Position numbers and translations under genes: made by a program
In this document: positions 2,205-19,373 of the stretch, piece after piece
Layout of the letters: each line of letters opens with the position of its first letter
Numbering within the stretch: position 1 is the first letter of the stretch
Notes under the pieces: model-generated
Told to the model about the DNA's origin: nothing
Seen by the model: only the letters and a program-made list of their open reading frames with translations
The model's database searches: none
NCBI RefSeq assembly: GCF_014323565.1
Contig: NZ_CP058669.1
Location: 1,267,501 to 1,331,500, forward strand
DNA: 64,000 nucleotides
Direction: 5' to 3'
Source of the DNA: Hyphobacterium sp. CCMP332
GTDB lineage: Bacteria; Pseudomonadota; Alphaproteobacteria; Caulobacterales; Maricaulaceae

Positions 2205-4286
2205 CTACCCGCTGCCCGTCAGACGGGACCAGAAGCCCGCCTTGCGGGACACATCCCGCGTTTCCGGTCCCGGCTCGTCATCCGGTTGCTCGGCCACGCC
2301 CCACGCCCCGGTCACCGGATCGACCCCGAGCCCGGCGATGCGTTTATCGAAATCGCCGAGTTCACCGGCATAGGGGCTGGTTGAATCGAGATGATCTGCC
2401 GATGGCGGCTTGCGGACCTGCACGGCGCTGAACGTCATTACCGATCGGTCAGACTTATAGAATTCGAGGCATTTGCGGTCCCAGCTGATTCCGCAGCGGG
2501 CGAGGACAAATCGCAACCGGGCTTCGAAATCGCCCACCAGATCCTCATACTGAAGCAAGGTGAAAGACTTCGGCAAAGCCGCTTCCCAATGCGCGCAGAG
2601 CCGGGCGTGTTCGGCATAATAGTGGGCAATATCATCCAGGTCATGGGCAAAGGGCCACTGGCGGAGAAATTGCGCCGGAAGATCGAGAACGCCGTTTCAC
2701 CGGGCGGCGGCGGATATGAATGACCGGCGACGCCGGAAAAAGCTGACGGATCAAGCCCACAGCAAGAAAATTCGAAGGTTGCTTGTCGGTGACATAGCGC
2801 GCGCCATCGAGCCCGAATTCGCGATGCTGGGCGCGGTAGCGCTCGCGCCAGACGGCAAGCCGGTCTTCGGAATGGGACCGCCGCTCCAGCCACTTTCCGT
2901 GGCCCACGTCATGAATTCCTCGAACACGAAGGGCAAGGCGCTGAGCTCACCGCCCGGCAGCACGTCATCATGGGCCGCAATCGCGGCTTCGATCAGCGTT
3001 GTACCGGACCGTGGCATGCCCACAATAAAGAGCGGGATGGCCATATCCCGGTTCGCGGGCGTTTCACCTGCCAGATCGGTCGGGAAATTCCTGATCAGCC
3101 AATCCGTTCGTGCCGTCTGCGCCGCGCGGTCATACGCCGAGACGACGGCACCATTATGCTGCAATTTCTTGGTGTCATTCGCGCGAGACCAGACGGCAAA
3201 CGCCCGGGCCGCTGCTTGCGGCGATGCAGCGCATCGCCCAGCGCGAACAAACCGATCGCGAGTTGATCGGCCGGCAGGCCCGGCTGCGCGACAGCCGCTT
3301 CCAGCGCGCCCACTTCCTCGTCTGTGAGCCGGCCACCCGATACTTCGCAGAGCTGGCCGTAGGCCCGAGATTGCCGGGATCAAGCGCCAGACTTTCCGGC
3401 AGGCCCGCTCGGCCTGTTCTATCTTGCCAGCGAATGTAAACCCGGGCCAGGCCGAAACCGCCGCGGCACATTGCGGATCGATGGCCTGGGCTTTCCGGAA
3501 ACAGCCTTCAGCCCGGCTGATATCTCTGGCGCCCAGAATGAGACGCCCCTGAGCGGCCCAGTTGGCGGCGCTCGGCTCGGCCTCGACAACCGACTTGAAG
3601 ACGTTTGCCGCCTTTGTAATAACCCAGCTGGCTCAATGCGTGTGCGTAGGCGCTCCGCGCTTCGACATCATCGCCGGCCGCGGCCAGCCAGCGCTCTGCA
3701 AAATCCCTCATCGCCGCCCAGTCGCCGCGATGCCGCGCCAGACCTGCTCGCAGGCGAAGCACATCTTCATGGTCCGACAGTCCGCTCGCTTCCGCTTTGT
3801 CGAGGGCCTCACCCACCCCGTTCAGATCGCCGCCTTCGGAACGGGCCGCGGCAAGGCGCAGGGCCACTGGTCCGACGGCCGGATGATGCGGCTCGGCCTC
3901 AAGGGCACGGGCAAGGCCTCTGCCGCGGTTTCGAAATCCCCGGCCTGTCCGGACAAATCCCCAGCCGGCCCCAGACATCGAACCGGCCCGGCGCAAGTTC
4001 CGTGGCGCCGCGCGGCCGCGATGGCCCTGTCTACATCTCCCGATGCGGCGCGCTCGATCGAACGGTAGAGATGCAGGACGGCCAGATCCGGGTCAGCAGC
4101 TTCGGCACGGTCAAGCCAGTCACGCCCCGCCGTTACATCCCCGTTCAAGGGCGCATATCCCCAATATGGCCATGGCCTCGGCATGGCGGGATTGCCCGCC
4201 AGAACCTCATGGCAGAGTGCCTCGGCCCGGTCGAACGCCTCCGCCAGCCGAAGCTGCGCCGCTTCCTGAAGCCGTGGATCCGTCAT
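2205..4286 (-). CDS. TPR-repeat sulfotransferase (frameshifted)
   Basis: The start MTDPRLQEAAQLRLAEAFDR at 4286 opens a TPR region of about 400 residues. The sulfotransferase domain follows. FIVGMPRSGTTLIEAAI is the 5'-phosphosulfate-binding loop (PRSGTT), and the C-terminal part has YEDLVGDFEARLRFVLARCG and a region resembling the 3'-phosphate site. The family moves sulfate from PAPS to a hydroxyl or tyrosine; the TPR part often recognises the acceptor. The ATG overlaps the stop of the upstream 2OG oxygenase (ATGA), so translation is probably coupled. At least five frame changes are needed. The acceptor is unknown. Confidence 0.78.
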
Positions 4287-5230: not shown

Positions 5231-6406
5231 CTAGTCGGTGATTTTGGAGACCACGCCGGCGCCGACTGTGCGGCCACCTTCGCGGATCGCGAAGCGCAGG
5301 CCCTGATCCATCGCAATCGGCGTGATCAGTTCAACGCTCAGCTCGGCATTGTCGCCCGGCATCACCATTTCCGTACCCTCTTTCAGGGTCACAACACCCG
5401 TCACATCCGTCGTCCGGAAGTAGAATTGCGGGCGGTAATTGGTGAAGAACGGGGTGTGACGTCCACCCTCTTCCTTCGTCAGGATATAGGCTTCCGCCTC
5501 GAACTTCGCATGCGGCGTGATCGAACCCGGCTTGGCCAGAACCTGACCGCGCTCGACACCTTCACGATCAATACCGCGCAGCAGCACACCGACATTGTCG
5601 CCGGCCTGGCCCTGATCGAGCAGCTTGCGGAACATCTCAACGCCCGTGCAGGTCGTCGTCTTGGTGTCACGCACACCGACGATCGCAATCTCTTCGCCCA
5701 CCTTGACGATGCCGCGTTCGATACGGCCGGTCACAACCGTTCCCCGGCCCGAAATCGAGAACACGTCCTCGATCGGCATCAGGAAAGGCAGGTCCACCGG
5801 ACGCTCCGGCGTCGGGATGTATTCATCCACAGCCGCCATCAGTTCACGGATCTTGTTCTCGCCAATCTCGGCATCGCGGCCCTCAAGGGCTGCCAGAGCC
5901 GAACCGGCAATGATCGGAATATCGTCGCCCGGGAAATCATAGGACGACAGAAGCTCGCGCACTTCCATCTCGACGAGCTCCAGGAGCTCCTCGTCATCCA
6001 CCTGGTCAACCTTGTTCAGGAACACCACCAGAGCCGGAACGCCAACCTGACGCGCCAGAAGGATGTGCTCGCGCGTCTGCGGCATCGGGCCGTCCGCCGC
6101 GTTCACAACCAGGATCGCGCCGTCCATCTGCGCCGCACCCGTGATCATGTTCTTCACATAGTCAGCGTGTCCCGGGCAGTCGACGTGCGCATAGTGACGC
6201 GCATCCGTCTCATACTCGACGTGCGCCGTCGAAATCGTGATCCCGCGCGCCTTCTCTTCCGGCGCAGCATCAATCTGATCATACGCCTTGAAGTCACCAA
6301 AATACTTCGTGATCGCCGCCGTCAGCGTCGTCTTGCCGTGGTCAACGTGACCAATCGTGCCAATGTTCGCGTGCGGCTTCGTACGCTCAAACTTTTCCTT
6401 GGCCAT
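5231..6406 (-). CDS. tuf: Translation elongation factor Tu
   Basis: Intact 391-residue EF-Tu. It brings aminoacyl-tRNA to the ribosome with GTP. The start is [20 protein letters not shown] at 6406; an open extension upstream in the same frame is not part of the protein. G1 is GHVDHGKTT, switch I is [14 protein letters not shown]3 is DCPGH and G4 is NKVD; domains 2 and 3 follow, ending [10 protein letters not shown]. Length equals that of many alphaproteobacterial EF-Tu proteins. It is one of the few long genes without frame damage. tRNA-Gly and tRNA-Tyr lie upstream on the same strand, a common neighbourhood in this class. Confidence 0.98.
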
Positions 6407-6554
6407 TGCTTTCATCCTTGTGATGTAACCGACCAACGGCGCTGTCCCCAGCGCACGTCCAAAACTGAGCGCGGGGATAGCGTCCACTTGCCATAAACGC
6501 AAGAGGGTTGCGGCAATGGATGTGTAAACGCGGCGGAACTGTGCTCGGTGCGCT

Positions 6555-6954
6555 TTATACGGACGGCATGACGGACTTCGGCCGACGCCAGATTCCGGCC
6601 AGCCCCAAACCGCCGATAATGCCGAAGGCAAACGGCGCCGGCGTTCGCCACGCGAATCGCTGCCCATGATCGCGGTCGCCAGGCCGAGTGCACCAAAACC
6701 TGCCATCATCGCAGTAGCAAAACGGCCAGAACAATCTCGTTCGGACGCATCGCCACGAACGCAAAAGCTGCCGAACACACGAGAAGCGCCACAGTCCCGT
6801 CATGCCAGGTGAAATAGCTGAGCCAGATAACCACCTCGGCAAACCGGGCGCATTGCGAATGGCGTCCACGACCAGCGGTCCGCCCAGGATAACGTGCGCG
6901 AAAGCCATGACCAGAGCGGCTATGGCCGCCAGTATGAAGGCAAAGTCTCGACAT
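6555..6954 (-). CDS. Small hydrophobic membrane protein, unknown function (frameshifted)
   Basis: About 133 codons after two or three frame changes. Hydrophobic segments include [20 protein letters not shown], a second around [20 protein letters not shown], a third around [16 protein letters not shown], and a last one ending [18 protein letters not shown]. Four membrane spans with a conserved-looking His after span 1 (AFAHVILGG) and WHDG before span 2 resemble a widespread uncharacterised small membrane family. It lies between tRNA-Gly and tuf on the same strand. No function can be assigned. Confidence 0.55.
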
Positions 6955-7008
6955 GCACGCTTCCGGGAAAAGAAGGAGCGTGGCACGTCAGCCAGTGAAT
7001 GAGAAGAC

Positions 7009-7081
7009 TGGAGCGGGTAGACGGATCGAACCGACATATTCAGCTTGGAAGGCTGCTGCTCTACCATTGAGCTATACCCGC
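7009..7081 (-). tRNA. tRNA-Gly (TCC)
   Basis: Minus-strand cloverleaf with 5' GCGGGTATAGCTCAATGGTA, anticodon loop CTTCCAA (anticodon TCC), acceptor end ACCCGC and encoded TCCA at the 3' end. The T-arm reads GGTTCGATCCG, one base shorter than the normal GGTTCGATTCCG. This is best explained by a missing base in the sequence. Confidence 0.93.
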
Positions 7082-7102
7082 ACTCAGACGTGACGAATGC
7101 GA

Positions 7103-7185
7103 TGGTGGAGGGGCTGATTCTGAACCAGCGTACGCTCGCGGCCAGATTTACAGTCTGGTGCCTTTAACCACTCGACCACCCCTCC
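7103..7185 (-). tRNA. tRNA-Tyr (GTA)
   Basis: Minus strand, class II tRNA with long variable arm: 5' GGAGGGGTGGTCGAGTGG, anticodon loop CTGTAAA (anticodon GTA), and acceptor CCCCTCC followed by ACCA. It lies 21 bases upstream of tRNA-Gly and is probably co-transcribed with it. Confidence 0.95.
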
Positions 7186-7324
7186 ATACGCATTCGACGC
7201 GCGACAAACGTCTTATCGCCAGATAAAACGCCGATGCAACACATCGTCTCCGTCAATCCGGTCCGGATTGCAGTGCGCGGCGGCTAAACAGGAGGCCCCG
7301 ATCAACGGAGCGCGGACTATAGTG

Positions 7325-8096
7325 ATGAAGAACCAAGGGCGCAACCGCCCCAATTCAGCATATAAAACAAGACCTTCACGCGATTCCGAGACCGATAGTA
7401 TCGGTTGGGTCTGGGGCGGCATGCCGTTCTCGCCGCGCTTGCGAATCGCGCCGCGAGTGAAGCGTTTACTGCTGACGCTGAATGCCCAGCGCGAAGTGCC
7501 CGAAGGCACGGCGTTCGAGGACATGAAGCCGGACGCGATATTCGCCCATCTGCCCGATGGCGCGGTGCATCAGGGTTTTGCCATGCGCGCGACAGCGCCC
7601 GAACCTGAATCCGTCAATGCCGTCGTGGATCCGACCCATGGCATTCTGGTCGTACTGGATTCAGTCACCGACCCGCACAATGTCGGCGCCGTCTTCCGCT
7701 CGGCGGCCGCGTTTGGCGCGCGCGCGGTGGTCATGCAGGACCGCAAGGCTCCGCCACTCTTCGGCGCGGTCGCCAAGGCGTCTGTGGGCGCGACCGAGAC
7801 CGTGCGCCATGTGCGCGTCACCAATATTGCCGATACGCTGATCGGGTTTCGCGAGGCCGGACGATCTGTCATCGGACTGGATGGCGAGGCCGAAACGCAT
7901 CTGCCCGAAGCCATAGCAAACACGGCGGCCCCGGACTGGTCATCGTCATGGGGGCCGAAGATAAAGGCTTGCGTCCGCGCATCGCGGAAAACTGCGACCT
8001 GCTGGTTTCGATTCCACCACCGGTAAAATCGAAAGCCTGAACATCTCCAACGCGGCGGCGATTGCGCTTTATGCCGCCTACGCTGCGCGGGCCTGA
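7325..8096 (+). CDS. rlmB: TrmH-family 23S rRNA 2'-O-methyltransferase (RlmB type, frameshifted)
   Basis: SPOUT methyltransferase of about 256 codons. A basic N-terminal tail (MKNQGRNRPNS) is followed by the substrate-binding domain. The catalytic domain has LVVLDSVTDPHNVGAVFRSA (motif 1), a glycine-rich stretch readable as VIVMGAEDKGLRP after a frame change near 7930 (motif 2) and SLNISNAAAIALY (motif 3, SAM-binding knot). RlmB methylates G2251 of 23S rRNA. A second frame change lies near 7420. It is divergent from the tRNA-Tyr/Gly/tuf group and is followed 6 bases later by the symporter gene. Confidence 0.9.
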
Positions 8097-8101
8097 CAGA
8101 A

Positions 8102-9446
8102 ATGGTTGCGGCGGCCGTTTTCGGCTATGTGATCCTGCAACTGGCGATCGCGGCCTGGGCGTCGCGGCGCACCTCCTCCGATACCGACTATCTCATTGCG
8201 GGCCGCCGCCTCGCGCGTTGTCGCGGTCGGCCTCTCGGTCTTCGCCACCTGGTTTGGCGGCGAGACGGTTCTGGGATCAACCGCGACCATTGCACGGAAG
8301 GACTGGCGGGCGCACGCGCCGAACCTTTGGCTATGCCATCACGCTTCTCCTGATGGCGCTGCTGATTGCCGGCCAGTTCCGCAAGCGCGGCTATGTCACC
8401 CTGGCCGATTTTTCCGCGACCGCTTCGGGCCACGCGCGGAGACGCTGGCTGTACTGGTGGCCATTCCCACTTCGGTGATCTGGGCGCAATGCTGGCCATG
8501 GCAACACTGATGGCCGTTGTCACCGGCATGGGTGTCGTCCCGATGTTGCTCGCGGCAACGGTGCTGGTCATCGTCTATACGTCGCTCGGCGGTCTGCTGG
8601 GTGATGTGATCACCGACATGATGCAAGGCGCGATTCTGCTGGTCGGACTGGTCCTGCTGCTGGCCCTGATGCTCGCCGCTGCAGGCGGCCCCGGCGCGGC
8701 ACTGGCGACGATTGATCCGGAACGCCTGCGTCTGGTCGGGCCAGGCGAGAGCTGGGTGGAGCGGCTGGATGTCTGATGATCCCGATCCTGGGCAGTCTCG
8801 TCGCGCAGGAACCGATCGCCCGCTTTCTCGGCGCGCGCTCTGCCGCGGTCGCGCGGACCGGCGGACTGGTTGCTGCCGGGCTTTATCTTCTTGTGGGCTG
8901 ATCCCGCTGGCATTCGGGCTTATCGCTCCGGGGCTCGAATCGAAACCGGCGAAGGCGACCCTTCCTGCCCGTTCTGGCCCGCGAGCTGATGCCCTCCCTT
9001 TCTGTTCGTCATCTTTGCCGGCGCGCTGTTTTCCGCCGTGCTCTCGACCGTGGATCGGCACTGCTGGCGATCTCGGCACTGGCGACGGAAAATATCTATG
9101 TTCGCATCCGGCCGGCTTCAGGCCAGCGGGAGCGGCTGAGAATTGCCCGTATTCTGACGGTCACGGCCGGTCTCGCCGCATTGCTCATCGCGCTCTCGGG
9201 CGAAACCATTTACGGCTCGTCGAACTGGCCTCTTCGCTCGGAAGCGCCGGCCTGCTGATTTGCGTACTCGCAGGCCTGCACCACCGCGCCGGCGGCGAGA
9301 TCTCGGCCATCGCGGCCATTCTGTGCGGACTGGCTGGGATGTTGCTGGCCGAATGGGTCTTCGCCCTACCGGGGGCCTTCATGCTGTCGATCGCCGCTGC
9401 AGCAATAGCCTATTTCACCACTGCGCTGACGTTCCGAAATCGATAA
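8102..9446 (+). CDS. Sodium:solute symporter family (SSS) transporter (frameshifted)
   Basis: About 448 codons with several frame changes. The N-terminus MVAAAVFGYVILQLAIAAWA, then SDTDYLIAGRRL and VGLSVFATWFGGETVLGS, is characteristic of SSS symporters (the FATWFG/GETVLG region lies in TM2-3). Further hydrophobic segments include VLVIVYTSLGGLLGDVITDM with the DxxQ-like segment following, and a C-terminal pair ending AAIAYFTTALTFRNR. Members co-transport Na+ with sugars, amino acids, proline or pantothenate; the substrate is not recognisable. The start is 6 bases after the rlmB stop. Confidence 0.82.
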
Positions 9447-9511
9447 ACATCGATAAACACGGCGGGTCGGTCGCATTCCGGATTGTCGGTTTCGGGCTTT
9501 CCAGAGGTGCA

Positions 9512-9741
9512 GGGCAATTCTACCCCTCTAACACCTATCACGAGTCAGACCCGTCACCAAGGGCGAGCGTATCGTCGCCATTGCCTTAATTGAAAGCCTG
9601 ATCAAGGACGCAGGGAAACGCAATCTGCTCTAAGAGCTGGGCGGGCTGATTGCCGAAGACGGCCTCAACGTCGCGGTGGAAAATCGCACGCGTATCGAAA
9701 TCCTTAGCAACAAACTGCACCGCATGCAGGATGGACAATAG
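9512..9741 (+). pseudogene. Remnant of a PKHD-type (PiuC-like) Fe(II)/2OG hydroxylase C-terminus
   Basis: Translation gives GQFYPSNTYHES, then after a frame change VTKGERIVAIALIESLIKD, GKRNLL, an in-frame TAA (9631-9633) and ELGGLIAEDGLNVAVE, ending HRMQDGQ. This matches the C-terminal third of PKHD hydroxylases (YPSxxLHxVxPVTxGERxVAxxWxxS...RELLYEL). No N-terminal part with the HxD motif is visible. The TAA replaces the Tyr of LLYEL, so unlike neighbouring frame breaks this needs a base substitution, and the gene is truncated. Hence it is probably a true relic. Confidence 0.6.
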
Positions 9742-9764
9742 TCAAGGCGGTGTCACGCCAAAGG

Positions 9765-9795
9765 AGGGCGTCGCAAAAGACGACGCCCTGCCCTT
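9765..9795 (+). terminator. Intrinsic terminator
   Basis: Perfect 9-bp stem agggcgtcg / cgacgccct with a 7-base loop, followed by gccctttctt on the plus strand. It separates the plus-strand relic from the minus-strand Cys-rich gene and may act in both directions. Confidence 0.7.
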
Positions 9796-9815
9796 TCTTG
9801 TTCAGCAAAACCGGC

Positions 9816-10237
9816 CTATTCGGTCGCTTCCTGACAGGTACAGCCGTAATCATTGCAGCCTATCGTGCCCTCGACACAGATCGGTGCCATGGCCACACAG
9901 TCCGATGCCCCGCACAGGCGCAATTGCCACTATTGCAGGTATAGTCAGCGGTCTCCGGCGGCGGTGTATTGGCGGCCAGGCTGGTGGCAGCCGACGACGA
10001 AGTGGATGGCGTCATGGCGCGATGCTGACGATGTCCCGTCGCCCGGCCCGAACTGACAAGTGCGGCCGCCTGCGCATAGTCACCACTTTCCATCGCGGTC
10101 TGGAATGCCGGACTGAAACTGGTATCGGTCTGCGTCTGGCGCAAGACGGCGCGTTGCTGGGCATCGGCCAGTGACAGCTCGCCAATGCCAACGAGACCGA
10201 CTGCCAGAGCCGAGATGATGAGAATGAGTCGAAGCAT
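9816..10237 (-). CDS. Small secreted cysteine-rich protein, unknown function (one frameshift)
   Basis: About 140 codons. A signal peptide (MLRLILIISALAVGLVGIG..., cleavage near LSLADA) is followed by a Gln/Thr-rich, disordered-looking middle. The short C-terminal cysteine cluster reads YTCNSGNCACAG, and after a one-base shift SDCVAMAPICVEG, then GCNDYGCTCQEATE. The eight cysteines in about 40 residues suggest a disulfide-bonded exported knot. I do not recognise the family. It lies 68 bases from the end of the DUF819 gene on the same strand. Confidence 0.6.
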
Positions 10238-10305
10238 GGAATATCTCCCCTGAAAACCCTCGCAGAAGACAGAATACTCCAGATTCCTTTGCGGCGAGTC
10301 TGTTG

Positions 10306-11473
10306 CTAGCCGGGCCAGAACTGATAGACCGCCGTGGCGATCAGAGTGCCCAGCGCATAGCCGAACACGCCGACCAGAACGCCCGGCGTCACCAGATCCT
10401 TCCAGCCTTTCGCCGCGGCCAGCGCCGGGGCCGTCGTTGCGCCCAGAATGGCGGCATTGGAGGCGGTGATCAGCTCCGGCACGGACAGGCGCAAGAGCGA
10501 TCCCAGCCCGAACAATACGATCAGATGCACGCCCAGCAGGATCAGCACCAGCACCATCAGGAGCGGCGCTTGCTGGATCAGGGACGGAATGTCGGCCCCC
10601 GCCGCAATCGCGGCAAAGAAGACAAAGGCGAGGCCAATGCCCAGCTCATACCCGCCGTGGAGTCTGGCCATGGTCTTGGGCATCAGCGTCGCCGGAATCA
10701 GCGTCAGCACGGTGATGATGGCATAGCGCCAGTTTCCCGCCTGCCGCGCCGCATCTTCAACGCCCAGATTGCCGAACAGCCCGCCGAGCAGGCCGGTGAG
10801 CATGTCGCCCAGCGCCACAATGGTCAGCGCAAAGGCAATGGTGATGGTCAGGGTGGCCGCCGTCGCCTTGCCGTCTTCTTCGGCCTCGACCTCGCCCTTT
10901 GTGTGGTCCCGGGCCGGAAATTTCGTCGCCAGCCATTTCCAGCCCGGCAGGATGGCCAGCAGGGCGAGAAAGAGCCCGGAGGCCAGATTATCAACCGCGG
11001 TCGCCGCCGAAACAAAGGCGCCATCGGCACGCAATCCGGTAATATCCAGCAGCGCGGCATAATTCACCGAGCCGCCAATATAGGTGGCGGTGAACACGCC
11101 GGCGATCCCCGCCTCGTCCGCCCCGAAATCCAGCACCGAGACCGCGGCAATCGCGCCCAGCACCGTGCCCAGCGCCGCCACGCCAAAGGCCAGCGTCATG
11201 CGCCCGGTTTCAAAGAAGATTTTCTTCAGATCCGCCTTCATCAAAAAGAGCGGGATCAGCACCGGCACAAAATAGGAAAAGACAAAGGAATAGGCGGGCG
11301 CGCTTTGCGGGATGATCCGCAGATTGGCCGCAAAATCGCCAGGAAGATCGCGACCACGGCCCCGGTCAGACCGCGCCGATGCGGGTCTTCTCGGCCAGAA
11401 AGCCGATGGCGGCAATCACGAACAGTCCCGCCATGACGGCGAAATGATTGTCGGCGGGAATCAGCGTGTCCAT
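10306..11473 (-). CDS. DUF819-family integral membrane protein (frameshifted near N-terminus)
   Basis: About 389 codons and eight to ten membrane spans. The N-terminus reads MDTLIPADNHFAVMAGLFVI. Later segments FGVAALGTVLGAIAAVSVL, FTATYIGGSVNYAALLDITG and VSAATAVDNLASGLFLALL, then SNAAILGATTAPALAAAKGW and FGYALGTLIATAVYQFWPG, match the DUF819/YjcL family of putative transporters. Substrates are unknown in general. The start overlaps the 3' end of the avidin gene by 13 bases, making it the last gene of the amidohydrolase-RidA-avidin operon. Two frame changes near 11330-11430. Confidence 0.82.
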
Positions 11474-11963
11474 GAAATCGGCCCCTTATGTGTCGGACGG
11501 CAGTAAAGCAGGCTGCGCGAAAGCGCAAATCGCAAGCGCCTCACATCTGCGCGATCACTCCCGGCGTTCAAACCGGCTGACCCCGTCAAACCGGCCCAGA
11601 CCTCCAGCTCCGGTCTCCGGTCGGGATCGGACCAGCGCACCAGCGACCATTGCGTTTCGATGACATCGCCCTCGATGGTCCCGGTCCAGCTGGTGATGGA
11701 GTGGCAGGTTTCCGCCTCTGCGCGCCAGACCACATTGAAGGTGATCAGCGGATCAAAGACCCGGCCCTCCACGGCGTATTCAATGCCCTGACAGGCATAA
11801 CCCACCGCGCCATTGATATAGCGGCCGGTAAACCGCCCTCGCCGTCAATGGCGTCGATTTGGAGCATCGAACCGCTCTGGTTTTCCCAGACCGATGGCGC
11901 GGGCAGATCATCCGCAAGCACCGGTGCAGCGATCAGGGCGAGAAGGACTGCCAGCACGCGCAT
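11461..11963 (-). CDS. Secreted avidin-family biotin-binding protein (short dimeric type, one frameshift)
   Basis: Starts MRVLAVLLALIAAPVLADD, a signal peptide, so exported. The mature part follows the avidin fold. VWENQSGSMLQIDAI holds the Asn and Ser of the biotin ureido site. After one missing base near 11835 come FTGRYINGAVGYAC (Tyr contact), FNVVWRAEAETCHSITSWTG (first Trp; Ser-x-Thr-x-Trp biotin contacts) and IETQWSLVR (TQW), then AGSD. The layout is closest to rhizavidin-like short avidins, including the two loop cysteines (GYAC and ETCHS) that form a disulfide there. Its stop lies inside the DUF819 gene; the C-terminal ~25 residues are less certain and could reflect another indel. Stop and start overlap (TAATG) with ridA upstream. 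Confidence 0.82.
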
Positions 11964-12360
11964 TACGCATCGGCCGCCAGATAGGCATCGGCTTCCACCT
12001 CGACGAGAAAGTCCGGTCCCGCCAGAGCCGAGATGCCATAGAGCGCCGAGGCAGGCGGACAATCACCGAACACCGCCGAATGCGCGCGGGCAAAGGCCGC
12101 CTGCGCCTCCGCGCTCATATCGGTGACGAAGACGCGGGTGCGGCGCACATGGCGCATATCCGCGCCGAGTTTCTTCAAGGCCGCCTCGATGATCTCCAGA
12201 CAACGCCGCGTCTGGGCTTCCATATCGCCGGGAGCAAAGGGCTGGCCATCTTCTCCCACCGCCACAGTGCCGGAAACCCAGATATGCGGGCCCTCCTTCA
12301 CGGCGCGGCGATAGCCGACGCGGTCCTCCCCACCGCGCCGCTGGAGACGCGTTCCACCAT
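11963..12360 (-). CDS. RidA/YjgF-family protein (one frameshift)
   Basis: About 132 codons. Start MVERVSSGA at 12360, then after one frame change EDRVGYRRAVKEGPHIWVSG. Family signatures include GDMEAQTRRCLEIIEAALKK, RTRVFVTDM and FGDCPPASALYGISALAGPD, ending FLVEVEADAYLAADA; an Arg follows HVR as in the active site of RidA enamine/imine deaminases. RidA removes reactive 2-aminoacrylate-type enamines; paralogues have diverse roles. The start lies 2 bases past the amidohydrolase stop and the end overlaps the avidin start. Confidence 0.85.
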
Positions 12361-12362
12361 GC

Positions 12363-13683
12363 CTATTCGGCGCCGCTGGCCGACAGGTAATCCAGCGCAA
12401 TCGCGGTCAGGCCTCGGTCGCCATGGTGATGGAGGTTTCCGCATCCGGCGCAAACAGGGCCGAGTGATTGCCGGGCGCCGACTGGCCACGCGACTGATAC
12501 TCGATCAGCGTGTCCTGCGGAGTGCCGCCCACCCAGAACATGAAGATCGGAATGTCTTCCTCGGTGCGGCCATAGCGGGAGAAATCCTCGCCGCCCATGA
12601 CGGGATCGAGCTGGCGCACGGCGAGGCTGCCAAAGCGCTCCTGCAGCACGGCCACGCCGGAGGCGTCAGGTCCGGATCATTATAGGTGGCCGGCGTATAG
12701 GGCTCTTCCACCTCGACAATCGGCAGACGGTCTTCGGGAATACCGGCAGAAATCGCCTGCCCGCGGGCAATGCGCTCAATGCCCGACAGCAACAATTCGC
12801 GATTGGCATCGGAATAGGAGCGCACCGTGATCTGCAGATGCACCTCGTCCGGGATGATGTTGTGCTTGGTGCCGCCATTGATCGCGCCCACCGTCACTAC
12901 GCCGGATTCCAGCGGATTGACCTCGCGGCTGACGAGTGTCTGCAGCGCGGTGATGATCTGCGCCGACAACAGCACCGGATCGCGTCCGACATGCGGGTAG
13001 AGCCATGCGCGCCAATGCCGCGCACCGTGATGTCGACCGAATCGACATTCGCCATGGCAAAGCCCGGCACATAGCCGATCATGCCCGCCGGAATGGCACC
13101 GAATGTGTGAAACGACACCACCGCATCGGGCAGAGGGAAGCGCTCATACAGGCCATCATCCAGCATCATCTGCGCGCCCAGGCCCAGCTCCTCGGCCGGC
13201 TGGCCGATCAGCACCAGCGTACCCGACCAGTCCGCGCGGCGTTCCGCCAGCTGGCGCGCCGCGCCGACGAGAGCCGTCATGTGCGTATCATGCGCGCAGG
13301 CATGCATGACATGGCTTTCCTGCCCGCGCCGGTCCGTGCCCAGAACGGTAGAGGCATAGTCCAGCCCGGTATTTTCCTCGATCGGCAGGCCATCCATGTC
13401 GGCGCGCAGCATCAGGGTCGGCCCCTCGCCATTCTCCATCACCGCCACAATGCCCGTGCCGCCAACATTCTCCGTCACCTCGAAGCCCAGCGCCCGGATC
13501 TCGGACGCCAGACGCGCCGCGGTTTCCACCTCCATCAGGAGAGTTCCGGATTGGCGTGAAAGTGCTGGTAAAGGCTTTCCAGGTTGGCCGAATAATCCGA
13601 CTGGATGGCGGTACGCAGATCGTCCTGCGCAAAACGCCGGCGGACAGCGCAATGGCAGCCGCAGAAGCAAGTAACAGACGCAT
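12363..13683 (-). CDS. Secreted M20D-type amidohydrolase/peptidase (frameshifted)
   Basis: About 440 codons. MRLLLASAAAIALSAGV is a signal peptide, then AQDDLRTAIQSDYSANLESL. The M20D features are LMLRADMDGLPIEENTGLDY, HVMHACAHDTHMTALVGAA (Cys and His metal ligands; usually GHD), GQPAEELGLGAQMMLDDG (catalytic/metal Glu pair) and PVMGGEDFSRYG. This clan hydrolyses amide bonds of N-acyl amino acids or conjugates such as hippurate or auxin-amino acids; secretion points to a periplasmic or extracellular substrate. First gene of a four-gene operon with ridA, the avidin gene and the DUF819 gene. Frame changes near 13660, 13550, 13000, 12670 and 12410. Confidence 0.85.
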
Positions 13684-13963
13684 GGTGTTCCCCTGGAATC
13701 TCTGCCGCGCATAGGACGTCGCACAGCGATTGCGGTCAAGGGTGTACGCTTGTTCGAGACGCTGTTGACGAGCCATCGCGCAACAGACGCCCCAACTCGC
13801 CATAACTGTAATCACACCCATCCGATCTGTTCCCCGCCCATCCCCGGCTCTTTTGTATCATTGTATTAAAACAATAAATCGCCAAACCCTGGACCGCCAT
13901 CCCAAGCAATGGGACCAACATGCCCCTTGCGGAATATAGGCGAGTCCGGCTTAAACTCATGCC
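13684..13963. promoter_or_regulatory. Divergent intergenic region between amidohydrolase operon and ABC transporter
   Basis: No gene seen. It must carry the promoters of both divergent units. It contains an A+T-rich block at 13851-13882 with the motif gtatcattgtattaaaac; a similar block follows the permease gene (see the repeat entry). Confidence 0.4.
13855..13882 (+). repeat. Copy 1 of an imperfect motif flanking the ABC transporter pair
   Basis: gtatcattgtattaaaacaa plus taaatcgc; the second copy at 15703-15732 reads gtgcatcactgtgctaaaac plus gctaattcgc. About 20 of 27 aligned bases agree and nearly all differences are transitions. Copy 1 lies 80 bases before the ATPase gene, copy 2 about 115 bases after the permease. 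An operator for a GntR-like regulator is possible, but no regulator gene is seen. Confidence 0.35.
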
Positions 13964-14869
13964 ATGCATGAGGCGATCATCGAAACCGAGGGACTCATCC
14001 GCCATTATGGCGATCTGGCCGCCGTGGAGGATTTGAGTCTGCGGGTCGAGCGCGGTCAGATTTTCGGCTTTCTGGGGCCGAATGGTGCGGGCAAGACCAC
14101 CACGATCCGCATGCTGCTGGGCCTGATCCGCCGCGATGCCGGACGTATCCGGATTGCCGGGCATGACCTCGCTTCAAACCGCCGCGCAGCGCTCGCCCGC
14201 GTCGGCTCCATCGTCGAAACCCCGGCGCTCTATCTCAACCTGACCGGCCGGCAGAATCTCGCCGTGACCTGTCATACGCGCGGCATCGGCAAAACCGATA
14301 TCGACCGCGTGCTCGACATTGTCGATCTGGCAAAGGATGCGGGCCGCAAGGCGGGAGTATTCCTCGGCATGCGCCAGAGGCTGGGCATTGCCCGCGCCCT
14401 TCTGGGCGAGCCGGAGCTTCTGGTCCTCGACGAACCGACCAACGGGCTGGACCCGGCGGGCATACGCGAAATTCGGCAATTGATCGCCGACGCTCCGGCG
14501 CGCTTTGGCACGACGATCCTGGTCTCCAGCCACATGCTCGGCGAGGTGGAACAGATGGCCAGCCATGTCGGCGTGATGAATCAGGGCCGCCTGTTGTTTC
14601 AGGGCACGCTGCCCGATCTCATCCGCACCGCCCCGCACAGACTGGAAATCCGGCTCGATAACTCGGCCAGAGCCCGAACCGCACTCGCCGATAACTGGCC
14701 GGACGCCGAGATTTCCGGGGCCGGTCTGGTCCTGCCCGGCGTGAACGAGGCAGAGGCCGCCGCCATCAACCGGCAACTGGTCGAGGCCGGGTTTGCCGTG
14801 ACCGGACTGGCCATCCGCCCGCCCGCGCTGGAAGACATTTTCCTCTCCCTGACAGGAGAAAACGCATGA
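13964..14869 (+). CDS. ABC transporter ATP-binding protein (BcrA/NatA type)
   Basis: Intact 301-residue ATPase. Walker A GPNGAGKTTTIR, Q-loop region SIVETPALYLNLTG, signature LGMRQRLGIARAL (the degenerate LSGGQ of this subfamily), Walker B ELLVLDEPTNGLDP and H-loop VSSHMLGEVEQM. The C-terminal ~80 residues are a regulatory extension. The family powers export of peptides, lantibiotics or drugs, or handles Na+. Overlaps the permease gene by ATGA. Confidence 0.93.
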   Translation: MHEAIIETEGLIRHYGDLAAVEDLSLRVERGQIFGFLGPNGAGKTTTIRMLLGLIRRDAGRIRIAGHDLASNRRAALARVGSIVETPALYLNLTGRQNLAVTCHTRGIGKTDIDRVLDIVDLAKDAGRKAGVFLGMRQRLGIARALLGEPELLVLDEPTNGLDPAGIREIRQLIADAPARFGTTILVSSHMLGEVEQMASHVGVMNQGRLLFQGTLPDLIRTAPHRLEIRLDNSARARTALADNWPDAEISGAGLVLPGVNEAEAAAINRQLVEAGFAVTGLAIRPPALEDIFLSLTGENA

Positions 14870-15587
14870 TCGGCGTGCTTTGGCGGATCTGATCAAACTG
14901 CGCGGCTCGCTGGTTTTGATGGTGATGGCTGTCCCGCCGGTGATGATGGCCGTGCTCGGCGTGCTGGTAATCATTTCCGGCAATGCCGCCGGCGACTGGC
15001 CGCGCACAGCGATATCCGGCACGGCGATCTGGGCCTATTTCCTCTTGCCGATGACGGCGACGGGCCTGACCGCCCTCCTCGCCCAGCTGGAACATTCCAC
15101 CGGCGTCTGGTCGCACATTCTCGCCACCGGCACGCCGCGCTGGCAGATCTTTCTGTCCAAGGGGCTGATCGCCTTTGCCCTGATGGGCGCGACCAGCCTG
15201 CTGGTGGGCCTGGCGATTTTCACGTCGGGCCATGTCGGCGGCCTCGTCATGCCGGCCGAAGCGCTGGAGGCATTCCACCCTATGGCCAGATCGTTTCCAT
15301 CCTTGCGAAAATGTGGGTGGCGAGCCTGCTCGTCACGGCGTTTCAGCTCGCCATCGCCTTGCGCTTTTCCAGCTTCGCCCTGCCGGTCTCGGTGGGCATT
15401 GGCGGCACCTTCGTGGCGGTCGCCGCCACCTCCTCGCAATGGGGCTGGTCTTTCCTGGCTGATGCCGGTGAATGTACTGGCCAGCGAACCGGACCGCGCC
15501 GAGACGGCCATTGCCATCGGCGGCATGGGCGGCCTTGTTGCCCTTACCGCCATGATCCTCTGGCTCAGCCGCCGGGACTGGGATTAG
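14866..15587 (+). CDS. ABC-2 type transporter permease (frameshifted)
   Basis: About 240 codons and six membrane spans. Starts MIGVLWADLIKLRGSLVLMV. Then AIWAYFLLPMTATGLTALLA, GTPRWQIFLSKGLIAFALMG (the cytoplasmic loop that typically contacts the ATPase) and ASLLVTAFQLAIALRFSSFA, ending MILWLSRRDWD. It resembles lantibiotic-immunity/ABC-2 permeases that pair with BcrA-type ATPases. Frame changes near 15280 and 15465. Together with the ATPase it forms a complete exporter; the substrate is unknown. Confidence 0.85.
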
Positions 15588-15901
15588 CGGTGCGCGAAGC
15601 GGCGCGGTCCCGTCCTCACCCTGCGGCCTCTCTCTACCGATTTTCTGCCCCGGCACTCGCCCCCACACTCTTCCGCTCCTGCTCTCCGGCTTTCCCGCCT
15701 AAGTGCATCACTGTGCTAAAACGCTAATTCGCTTCAGCAGCCCTGGTCAGGCGAGCCTTCTACGCGCGCGGACGAATGCGGACCAGGATGCCGGGGCCCT
15801 TCACTTTGGCGCGCGGCGGATAAGGCCGCCTTATCCGCGCCATCCCGTCCCCGCTTACGCTTACCGCCAGCCCCGAAGCGGCTCTGCGTCGAGCGGCGCG
15901 A

Positions 15902-16093
15902 GCCTATCCCCGCAAAACAGTGGGAGACTGTAGGAGAGAATTGGAGAAACCGGAGATGAACTGGAGACGGGTCGGAGACCACCGGAGGTATGCCGTTGAC
16001 CGGCAACGCCTTCCCCGGCAAGGATTTGTGCCCGAACAGACCGGATTTGCCGCAAAATCGTAGTAGGAGACGAAAACGCCTATCCCCGCAAAA
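15902..16093. repeat. Pair of 16-bp direct repeats
   Basis: gcctatccccgcaaaa occurs exactly at 15902-15917 and 16078-16093, bracketing the GGAG array. The second copy continues into ttatccac. Identical copies 176 bases apart within otherwise unrelated sequence point to a duplicated element end or a binding site. Confidence 0.6.
15923..15988 (+). repeat. Seven-copy GGAG array with helical-turn spacing
   Basis: GGAGA/GGAGG begins at 15923, 15933, 15943, 15952, 15963, 15974 and 15984: spacings 10, 10, 9, 11, 11, 10. The first copy sits in the loop of acagt-gggag-actgt and the sixth in ggtc-gga-gacc, both perfect small stems. On the other strand the array reads as seven TCTCC/CCTCC pyrimidine boxes. 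Possible roles: GGA-binding protein (CsrA-like) sponge RNA, a C-rich anti-Shine-Dalgarno RNA from the minus strand, or a phased DNA-protein array. Confidence 0.55.
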
Positions 16094-16188
16094 TTATCCA
16101 CGCCCTGTCCGCGGATTGATCTCTGCGCAGCAACAGCAGAAACCGGGTAAGCTTGCCATGAGATCCGAAAATCACGAGGGCATTGGTC

Positions 16189-16452
16189 ATGGGATCCGAA
16201 ATCATCTTCCTGATTGTCTTTTTGCCGATTGGCTTGGCCGCTGGATACCTCGCCGGGCCGATAACGAAGGGCAAACGCCCGTTCGAGCTCATTGGCGACC
16301 TGACCTTGGGCATGATTGGCGGTTTTATGGGCGTTTGGTTGCCTGCAGCTTTCGGCGTCATTATTTCAGGCGGGTTCATTGGCGCGTCTGTGACCGCCCT
16401 GATCGGCGCGGTGACGATCCTCATTATCGCGCGGCTGATCAAGCGGGCCTAG
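16189..16452 (+). CDS. GlsB/YeaQ/YmgE-family stress response membrane protein
   Basis: Small protein of 87 residues from the ATG at 16189 (MGSEIIFLIVFLPIGLAAGY), preceded by CGAGGG. Three hydrophobic spans with GDLTLGMIGGFMGVWL and a final glycine-rich span ending IARLIKRA match the transglycosylase-associated (GlsB) family. The cellular role is poorly known; it is often stress-induced. Its stop overlaps the stop of convergent metG in a shared ctag. Confidence 0.85.
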   Translation: MGSEIIFLIVFLPIGLAAGYLAGPITKGKRPFELIGDLTLGMIGGFMGVWLPAAFGVIISGGFIGASVTALIGAVTILIIARLIKRA

Positions 16453-18162
16453 CGGCCATCACCGCCGAAACGCGCGGTCCATTCGGCAACGGTATCGTCG
16501 TCAATCTTGGCAAACAACACATCCGGCGGCGTCACGGCGAGGCCGTGCGGCAGGACATCCAGCAGGTCCGCCGCCGGTTCATTCGGCCAGCTGCGATTGG
16601 CCTCCGGCACACCAAGGCAATCAAGAATGATCTTCGCCGAATTGGGAATGATCGGCTGGGCGGCAATGCCCATCAAGGCCGCCAGATTCAGCGCCGTGCG
16701 CACACCAACAGCGGCTTTTTCCGGGTCGGTCTTGAAATGCGTCCACGGTTCGGCGCGGGTCAGGTATTCATTGCCCGCCGCCCACAGGGCGCGGGTTTCC
16801 GCTGCGGCCGGACGGAACCGCATCGCGTCATAATTGTCGGCAATCGCGGCCAGGCGCTCATCGACTTCGCGCGCCAGCCAGGCTTCATGCTCCCGGTTTC
16901 GCCACCCGCCGGCACCGCCCCGTCAAAGCGCGACGCCGTGAAGCGCAAAATCCGGTTGATGAAATTGCCGAGCACATCGGCGAGATCCTTGTTCACCGAT
17001 CCCTGGAAATGCTCCCAGGTAAATTGCGTGTCCGAGCCTTCCGGCGCGTTCGCCGTCAGATACCAGCGCCAGTAATCGGCCGGTAACAGCTCCAGCGCCG
17101 TATCCATGAAAACGCCGCGCTTTTCCGAGGTCGAGAATTTGCCGCCATACCAGTTGAGCCAGTTGAACGCCTTCAGCCGGTCGACCGTCTTCCACGGCTC
17201 TTCCGAACCGAGGATCGTCGCCGGGAAAGAGACTGTGTGGAAAGCCACATTGTCCTTGCCCATGAACTGGACATAGGTGACATCGTCCGCGCCCTTGTCG
17301 GTGCGCCACCAGCTTTCCCAGTCGCCGCCATTGGCCTGCGCCCATTCCTCGGTCGCGCCGATATAGCCAATGGGGGCATCAAACCAGACGTAGAAAACCT
17401 TGTTTTCAAACCCTCGCGCACCACTCCGTCGCGCGCCACCGGCACACCCCAGGCAAGGTCGCGCGTGATCGAACGATCGCGCAAGCCCTCTTCCAGCCAC
17501 TTGTTCGCGATCGACACCGCCAGAGACGGCCATTTGTCCGCTGCGTTATCGACCCAGGCGCGCAGCTTCGGCTCCATCTTCGTCTGCAGCAGATAAAGGT
17601 GCCGGGTTTCCCGGACCTCGATATTCTTGGATCCGGAAATCTTCGAATACGGTTCCTTCAGATCGGTGGGCTCCAGAAGGCGCCCGCAATTATCGCACTG
17701 GTCGCCGCGGGCCCGCTCGAAATCGCAATGCGGGCAAATGCCCTCCACATACCGGTCCGGCAGAAAGCGCGCATCATCAACTGAATAGACCTGGCTGTCC
17801 GTGCGCTCATCGATCAGACCCTTGTCTTCCAGAACGCCCGCAAAATGCTGGGTCAGGCGATAGCTCGGCTCATGAGACGTCCGCCCGAAATGATCATAGC
17901 TGAGCGCAAACCCTTCGCCCGCCGCGCGCTGGATATCGTGTTCCCGGTCGCAATAGGCGCGCACATCCATGCCCTCTGCCGCCGCCGCCAGTTCCGCCGG
18001 CGTGCCATGCTCATCGGTGGCACAGATATACAAAACGTCATGGCCGCGAAGGCGTTGAAAACGCGCATAGACATCCGCCGGCAACATGGAACCGGCCAGA
18101 TTGCCCAGATGCTTCACCCCGTTGATATAGGGTAGCGCGCTTGTGATCAGATACCGGGCCAT
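16449..18162 (-). CDS. metG: Methionyl-tRNA synthetase (two frameshifts)
   Basis: About 571 codons. Class I synthetase: [20 protein letters not shown] carries the HIGH-like motif (HLGN), [18 protein letters not shown] is the zinc knuckle, [19 protein letters not shown] is the core, and [12 protein letters not shown] is the KMSKS-like loop (KFSTS). The anticodon domain follows with [10 protein letters not shown] and [11 protein letters not shown]. It charges tRNA-Met and is essential, so the breaks near 17410 and 16900 must be sequence errors unless another copy exists. There is no C-terminal tRNA-binding extension, as is common in this class. Confidence 0.95.
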
Positions 18163-18278
18163 TTTTGCTTCGCCTCAATTACAGTTTGTGTTTAGGGTTT
18201 CCGCGTGCCGCGCGCCCCTGATCGGGGCGGGCCTGATTCCAGCGCGAGACATACGCGCGAAAGACTGGGGAAAAGAGC

Positions 18279-18681
18279 ATGGACGTTTACGGAATCAATA
18301 TCATCGCAGTTTTACTGGCAACGCTCGGCTTCATGGTCGTGGGCTTCCTCTGGTACGGGCCGCTCCTCGGCAAGCGCTGGATGGCGCTCAATGGCTTCAC
18401 GCCCGAGGCAATGGGCAGCGTCAACATGCCCTTGATGATGGCTAAGGGCTCACCAATTCGCTCATTGCCGCGATCGGCATTTCGCTGGTCCTGAACTGGA
18501 AAGGTGCAGAAGGTCTGCTGGCTTCGATGAAGACCGCCTTCTTCGTATGGCTGTTCTTCTCGGCCACAACAGCACTGTTGGCTCACATCTACGAAAAGCA
18601 GAAGCTCGAACTGGCGCTGATCCATTTCGGAAACCAACTGACGGCCTATCTGCTGGCCGGCGCGATTATCAGCTTTTCTGA
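18279..18681 (+). CDS. DUF1761-family small membrane protein (frameshifted)
   Basis: About 134 codons. MDVYGINIIAVLLATLGFMV then GFLWYGPLLGKRWMALNGFT is the DUF1761 signature (a WYGPL..KxW motif after the first span). After a frame change follow LIAAIGISLVLNWKGAEG and TAFFVWLFFSATTALLAHIY, ending LTAYLLAGAIIS. Function unknown. The stop is taken as the TGA at 18679 after one more shift; a strong terminator hairpin follows 9 bases later. Confidence 0.8.
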
Positions 18682-18689
18682 ACCAAATC

Positions 18690-18719
18690 AGCGATGCCTG
18701 CTTGCAGGCAGGCATCGCT
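18690..18719 (+). terminator. Intrinsic terminator hairpin
   Basis: Perfect 12-bp inverted repeat agcgatgcctgc / gcaggcatcgct with a 6-base loop directly after the DUF1761 gene and 26 bases before tRNA-Thr. The T-tract is weak. Confidence 0.75.
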
Positions 18720-18744
18720 TCGCTATAGCATCGCCCAACAGCGG

Positions 18745-18818
18745 GCCGGCTTAGCTCGCTGGTAGAGCACCTGATTTGTAATCAGGGGTCGGGAGTTCGA
18801 GTCCCTCAGCCGGCACCA
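18745..18818 (+). tRNA. tRNA-Thr (TGT)
   Basis: GCCGGCTTAGCTCGCTGGTA start, anticodon loop TTTGTAA (anticodon TGT), acceptor GCCGGC and encoded ACCA. It has 74 bases; the D-arm lacks an A (AGCTC-GCTGG) and the variable region lacks a G relative to the normal 76-base form, again single-base deletions. The accessory island begins right after it. Confidence 0.93.
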
Positions 18819-19373
18819 TTATTTGGGCCTAAGCCCTAAATTGTGAAACAATTATCGAGATACCCTTTGGTCGAAACCAACGATCCGACCAACAAATGAA
18901 TTCGTAACAGGCAGGAGCCCTGCTGAAATGTGCTCCTTGAATTCTCCGGCTATTTAGCGATTCAAATTGATTCACCGGTACATTTTGATCCGATCCTACA
19001 CGCGTCGAATATCAACTGCGACAGCAAGTCTTAAGCAGGAAGCTTCTGCTCTACCATTTGCGATAACCCTGAATACAAGCCGTATTGCACGCTATTGTGG
19101 GTAATCGGGCATTTGTGAAACGGAATGAACCGGAATAATTCGGTCTAAAACGGATGAAACGTGATCAAGAGTCCGGAATAGTCCGGAGCCCTGTGGTCTT
19201 TTCATCCCCAGTTTCACCAGTACACCGTCGCGGGATCGCTTCTGGCCCCACTATCGTTATCGACAGCTGTTTCAAACGGACCAGCGCCCACGCCTGACTG
19301 CGCCCTTGGCTCCCTCGTTTATTGAGAGCCAACCCGTTCCACGGCCGTCGACAACGCAATCCGCAGCTTCAAC
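18819..19373. other. Gene-free junction between tRNA-Thr and the accessory island
   Basis: No gene with recognisable content. Base composition becomes visibly richer in A+T here. It contains a minus-strand tRNA-like relic at about 19001-19071. No exact duplicate of the tRNA-Thr 3' end was seen within the following 12 kb, so an attachment-site pair is not demonstrated. Confidence 0.4.
19001..19071 (-). other. tRNA-like relic, possibly from tRNA-Gly
   Basis: The minus strand reads GGGTTATCGCAAATGGTAGA then GCAGAAGCTTCCTGCTT and TGTCGCAGTTGATATTCGAC. It keeps the AATGGTAGAGCAG D-arm, a TTCC anticodon region and a T-arm-like end like the true tRNA-Gly at 7009-7081, but pairing in the acceptor and anticodon arms is lost. 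It is not a functional tRNA. Confidence 0.35.

Follow-up and report, generated by a model that had tools for sequence, protein, structure and literature searches.

In Hyphobacterium sp. CCMP332, a small gene of the avidin family lies between genes encoding a RidA-family protein and a predicted membrane protein (DUF819), downstream of an M20-family amidohydrolase gene (Table 1). The stretch of DNA analysed (the window) comprises 64,000 nucleotides of a genome assembled as a single contig of 2,690,927 bases, which it matches exactly across the 17,001 bases compared, and the genus is assigned by NCBI to Maricaulales, Maricaulaceae. The RidA stop codon and the avidin ATG share one base, and we infer that the two genes are coupled. 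The first 11 residues of the congener RidA have no match in the frame that carries the rest of the protein.

Table 1. Genes of the avidin locus and segments of the avidin gene (positions in the window)
Feature	Position	Strand	Remarks
M20-family amidohydrolase gene, upstream	12366..13739	-	four frame segments in the assembly
RidA-family (Ribonuc_L-PSP) gene, directly upstream	11963..12328	-	matched part from congener residue 12
Avidin gene	11555..11963	-	three frame segments in the CCMP332 assembly; unbroken orthologues L012-L016
Avidin N part: signal peptide and WENQSGS	11963 to about 11831	-	first frame
Avidin core: FTGRY...IETQWSLVRW	about 11838 to 11620	-	second frame
Avidin C part, ends GRFDGVSRFERRE	stop 11557-11555	-	third frame
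DUF819 predicted membrane protein gene, downstream	10306..11485	-	three frame segments

The ATG at 11963 starts MRVLAVLLALIAAPVLADDLPAPSVWENQSGSM, with a leader that resembles a signal peptide when judged by eye, followed by SVWENQSGS. FTGRY, FNVVW, CHSITSWTG and IETQW are read in a single frame, other than that of the ATG, and keep the avidin order; the signal peptide and the series of motifs reported in a sequence-only reading were found as described, on the minus strand. That reading had extended the gene over 11461-11963, which overran its true end at 11555, as 11461 lies in the start region of the DUF819 gene (match beginning at 11485). It had also proposed a single missing base near 11835, where two frame breaks were found in a gene of about 137 codons. 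The strongly divergent C-terminus that it described is the product of reading beyond the second break: the third frame gives GRFDGVSRFERRE followed by a stop, in agreement with the C-terminus of congeners (GRFEGVSRFERQD in L014). A new C-terminal type of avidin is not supported, since the odd tail stems from this second break.

The 81-residue middle piece matched wilavidin with an E-value of 5.6e-14, far beyond chance. A search against the avidin Pfam profile, suggested in the same reading, gave 20.2 bits (E 8.2e-4) for the longest piece of the broken gene, below the cut-off of 24, and a scan of the whole CCMP332 genome with this profile gave no match; we attribute both results to the broken frame. 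All five unbroken copies of the genus scored above the cut-off, at 40.6 to 45.5 bits. From its sequence, the gene is a real member of the PF01382 family.

Errors in the assembly are the most likely source of both breaks. Alignment with H. indicum in four stretches, each longer than 1 kb (within window positions 5232-18824), gave 12,042 columns, coding or not, with 71 indels whose length is no multiple of three; 56 of these were bases absent from the window. Nearby, the TrmH, SSS-type symporter, DUF819 and M20 amidohydrolase genes are also broken. Because similar indels pervade the neighbourhood whether or not it is coding, assembly error is the likely cause, which would mean that the avidin of CCMP332 is probably translated whole. 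Gene ends read from 5232-18824 are unreliable, given the many frame-shifting indels relative to H. indicum.

It is very improbable that the breaks are real and the gene is a decaying pseudogene. Two breaks within so short a gene would suit decay, as would the apparent deletion of avidin in one congener (described below) and the intact state of some neighbours: in the ABC-transporter gene beside the operon, 300 of 306 residues match in one unbroken frame. With the bioB frame also open, not every gene is broken. However, TrmH, symporter, DUF819 and M20 genes share the condition of the avidin gene, the excess of missing bases fits a process of assembly error, and the dN/dS of the avidin core against H. 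indicum is low (0.13 by NG86, 0.07 by YN00), with 20 of 30 nucleotide differences at third positions. The values for the N piece (0.24, 20 codons) and the C piece (0.74, 13 codons) come from segments too short to weigh.

Unbroken orthologues were found in five of the seven other Hyphobacterium genomes, including H. indicum strain 2ED5 (L012). The other two gave no avidin when searched, so the protein is dispensable. The order M20 amidohydrolase, RidA, avidin, DUF819 is common to the window, H. indicum, L013 and L016, the last a metagenome-assembled genome labelled Maricaulis. RidA and avidin are separated by about 0.5 kb in L015, and in L014 by an amino-acid-permease gene, with no DUF819 match after the avidin on this 7 kb contig. 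The M20, RidA and DUF819 genes are present in two relatives, G011 and G016, in both of which no avidin was found; 85 bases lie between the RidA and DUF819 matches in the former, and a 175-codon frame of another kind in the latter. Because these three genes occur without avidin, the avidin gene seems to have joined an operon that already existed. On the basis of the same two genomes, the view of the whole operon as a biotin-salvage unit dependent on avidin was rejected.

One genus member without avidin (G007) has a short frame, SPSVWENPSGPVLY, followed by KGWKDLVTPGVL, the DUF819 tail (L064, about 3643-3798). Here the piece PSVWENPSG is joined directly to the DUF819 tail. The avidin match of this scar is weak (21 bases, E 6e-4) and confined to L014; its DUF819 match spans 34 bases (E 1e-11), and none of 50 shuffles gave any match. 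It seems that G007 lost its avidin by a deletion that fused the start of the avidin gene to the DUF819 tail. An amino-acid-permease gene adjoins the scar, of the same kind as that beside the avidin in L014.

Membership of the avidin family, as first proposed, is borne out by profile, sequence matches in the PDB, fold and alignment. A profile built from the five unbroken copies matched wilavidin (6.7e-29), shwanavidin (6.3e-26) and rhizavidin (2.3e-19), and also found agroavidin, bradavidin 2, afifavidin and hoefavidin. The AlphaFold2 model of the H. indicum protein, built from five sequences, has eight strands (mean pLDDT 79.7), and its best Foldseek matches were wilavidin, rhizavidin and shwanavidin, several of them biotin complexes. 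The likeness to rhizavidin proposed earlier is supported by the fold predicted for this copy. Among the 50 matches listed, TM-scores ranged from 0.62 to 0.69 by query and 0.70 to 0.89 by target, with rmsd of 2.3 to 4.4.

Wilavidin (PDB 7ouq, 7our, 7p8y, 7p8z) is the best match in both sequence and fold. It shares the cysteine pair and the contact pattern of the Hyphobacterium protein, although identity is about 39 to 42% among the Foldseek alignments listed, and it has Asp where Hyphobacterium has Ser. Wilavidin forms hexamers, and closely similar avidin sequences differ in assembly; the dimeric type suggested in the sequence-only reading does not follow from sequence. The dimeric shwanavidin and rhizavidin also share the cysteine pair between loops L3,4 and L5,6 and the lack of a lid Trp, but retain the Asp that contacts the ureido group (about 33 to 39% identity). 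No paper joining wilavidin with avidin was found in the literature search, nor one joining Hyphobacterium with avidin in the open-licence literature.

Of 385 genomes from the class, 5 had a match to the Pfam avidin profile, as did 15 of 398 from the phylum, and the viral contigs searched held no relative. The earlier statement that avidins are rare in bacteria holds in that they are uncommon, yet they are well known there: passages of PMC8033661 record them from 118 species, including one 'Maricaulis sp.'. Fusions of avidin with an aspartic peptidase are described in the same source, and two matches within long frames from the same phylum, L096 (723 codons) and L099 (659 codons), are perhaps such fusions.

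Alignment and tree comprised 25 sequences, six from the genus and 19 others. From the Pfam matches of the class (L007-L011) and the phylum (L091-L104), only L011, L094 and L096-L104 were left out; L094 is a near copy of L093, which we take to be rhizavidin (from its match to the u44080 sequence). Among the 14 weaker avidin matches (L076-L089), L088, with Ala at the Asp128 place, was kept out, and L080 and L082, for which no frame was read, were not aligned. In the tree the six genus copies formed one group (98/93), which falls inside the group of cysteine-pair avidins with support of 93/91, a placement drawn as open.

Residue roles were in part taken from passages of PMC5398887 and PMC4888747. 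Asn and Ser of WENQSGS are retained in the genus rows (L015 reads WENQGGS), as are the GRY Tyr with the Asn that follows, the core Trp in VVW, the Ser/Thr-x-Thr-x-Trp set and the Trp in T-E/Q-W. In the alignment both loop cysteines occupy the rhizavidin columns in all six rows, which supports the disulfide-type cysteines and the rhizavidin likeness proposed earlier. Dimeric avidins have the L3,4-L5,6 disulfide and no Trp lid, according to parts of PMC5398887. At the lid column of loop L7,8 none of the five unbroken copies has a Trp; four have an earlier Trp at the end of LVRW, where L014 has Met. The second frame break sits in this loop, so that of CCMP332 is only partly readable.

All six genus rows have Ser where streptavidin has Asp128. 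Elsewhere in the alignment this position is Asp in 11 rows, Ala in five and Ser in three. Asp is absent from 14 of the 15 rows of the host's taxonomic family (L078 keeps it) and present in all ten from outside it. It is also present in the five other cysteine-pair rows aligned, and in wilavidin, shwanavidin and afifavidin. In passages of PMC5398887, the position is given as Asp in bradavidin and Asn in chicken avidin. By calorimetry, loss of Asp128 cost streptavidin 4.4 kcal/mol (PMC4888747), so the affinity of the Hyphobacterium protein may be low or its ligand different. Loss of the Asp might serve to let the ligand go, or it might point to a different ligand.

All eight non-Asp rows outside the genus are streptavidin-like proteins of sister genera. 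A second secreted avidin type, streptavidin-like, occurs in the host's family (L079, L081, L083-L089; genera g8, g12, g19), and the two copies scanned with the Pfam profile, L079 and L081, scored 69.2 and 77.2 bits. The eight aligned (L079, L081, L083-L087, L089) have Ala (five) or Ser (three) at the Asp128 position, as in Hyphobacterium without the Asp, so that Ser at this place is not, as had been considered, unique to the genus. They differ in that all eight lack the cysteine pair, carry a lid-type Trp and have Phe in the Trp79 column, and they lie in a separate part of the tree.

Biotin metabolism was surveyed in eight genus genomes (G000-G007). Seven have bioB above cut-off; the eighth, G004, is 69% complete. 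In none of the eight was bioD found, while the positive control was found in Caulobacter vibrioides, and BioY was likewise found in none. Matches to bioA in seven and to bioF in all eight were never over cut-off. The best bioA match of H. indicum scores best as acetylornithine transaminase (ArgD), and its two best bioF matches score best as glycine C-acetyltransferase (Kbl) and 5-aminolevulinate synthase. Taken by itself, bioB would point to a host that produces biotin, a reading rejected in the light of the bioD, bioA and bioF results. The genus is apparently a biotin or desthiobiotin auxotroph, predicted to have a bioB-only pathway and no BioY.

Such a bioB-only pattern is described for marine bacteria able to live on desthiobiotin, and predicted for 20% of 1068 bacteria, in passages of PMC9561691, where the ability to use desthiobiotin is attributed to a large majority of the study's Caulobacterales. 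By the terms searched, its main text names neither Hyphobacterium, placed by NCBI in Maricaulales, nor Maricaulis. No enrichment of avidin among genomes lacking bioD emerged: bioD is absent from 17 of 18 family genomes with an avidin match and from 12 of 14 without a listed avidin, some of which may still have one. Carriers of avidin are therefore not set apart by auxotrophy, because most of the family members examined have no bioD either way.

We consider it highly probable that the protein is an exported avidin, probably whole, and most likely captures biotin, perhaps desthiobiotin, outside the inner membrane. Its Sec signal would send it to the periplasm or outside the cell. An eight-stranded barrel would hold biotin at its open end, while the disulfide between loops L3,4 and L5,6 would keep the L3,4 loop closed, replacing the missing lid tryptophan. 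The biotin or desthiobiotin captured might then be held for the cell itself or denied to others. Capture is favoured because the genus keeps bioB and apparently not the preceding steps, and the owner's apparent need for biotin argues that it is at least part of the role. A role in uptake would be without a known partner transporter, as BioY was found in none of the eight genomes.

Denial of biotin to others, as a weapon or as an anti-grazing protein, is possible but somewhat doubtful. It is the view published for bacterial avidins, set against competitors or grazers in passages of PMC8033661, and the export signal (identified by eye) agrees with it. However, the producer seems to depend on an external supply of biotin or desthiobiotin and could be starved if it secreted the protein freely. 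An avidin-fold protein that no longer binds biotin tightly and has a different ligand, which the M20 amidohydrolase-RidA operon might produce, is unlikely. The Ser at the Asp128 position throughout the genus, where the other cysteine-pair rows and wilavidin, shwanavidin and afifavidin have Asp, would fit such a ligand, as would the place of the gene in an operon with an amidohydrolase and RidA; against this, the remaining contact positions checked are kept, and G011 and G016 have the operon but gave no avidin.

Capture of biotin for the cell might extend to a broader, distinctly speculative and unlikely scheme for Hyphobacterium and the genera related to it, bacteria that for the most part apparently cannot make biotin. 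In these bacteria, two types of exported avidin may have dropped the ureido-contact Asp and may act as releasable collectors of biotin and desthiobiotin, feeding their owner rather than starving others.

The Hyphobacterium avidin adds another case to the known bacterial avidins, and its conserved contact change deserves attention. PMC8033661 states that no systematic study had addressed the ecological role of bacterial avidins and that new clades call for experiments. For the purpose of bacterial avidins, Hyphobacterium offers a clean test system, because an exported avidin, an apparent biotin auxotroph and a conserved change at a key contact combine in it, and the copy in H. indicum 2ED5 is unbroken.
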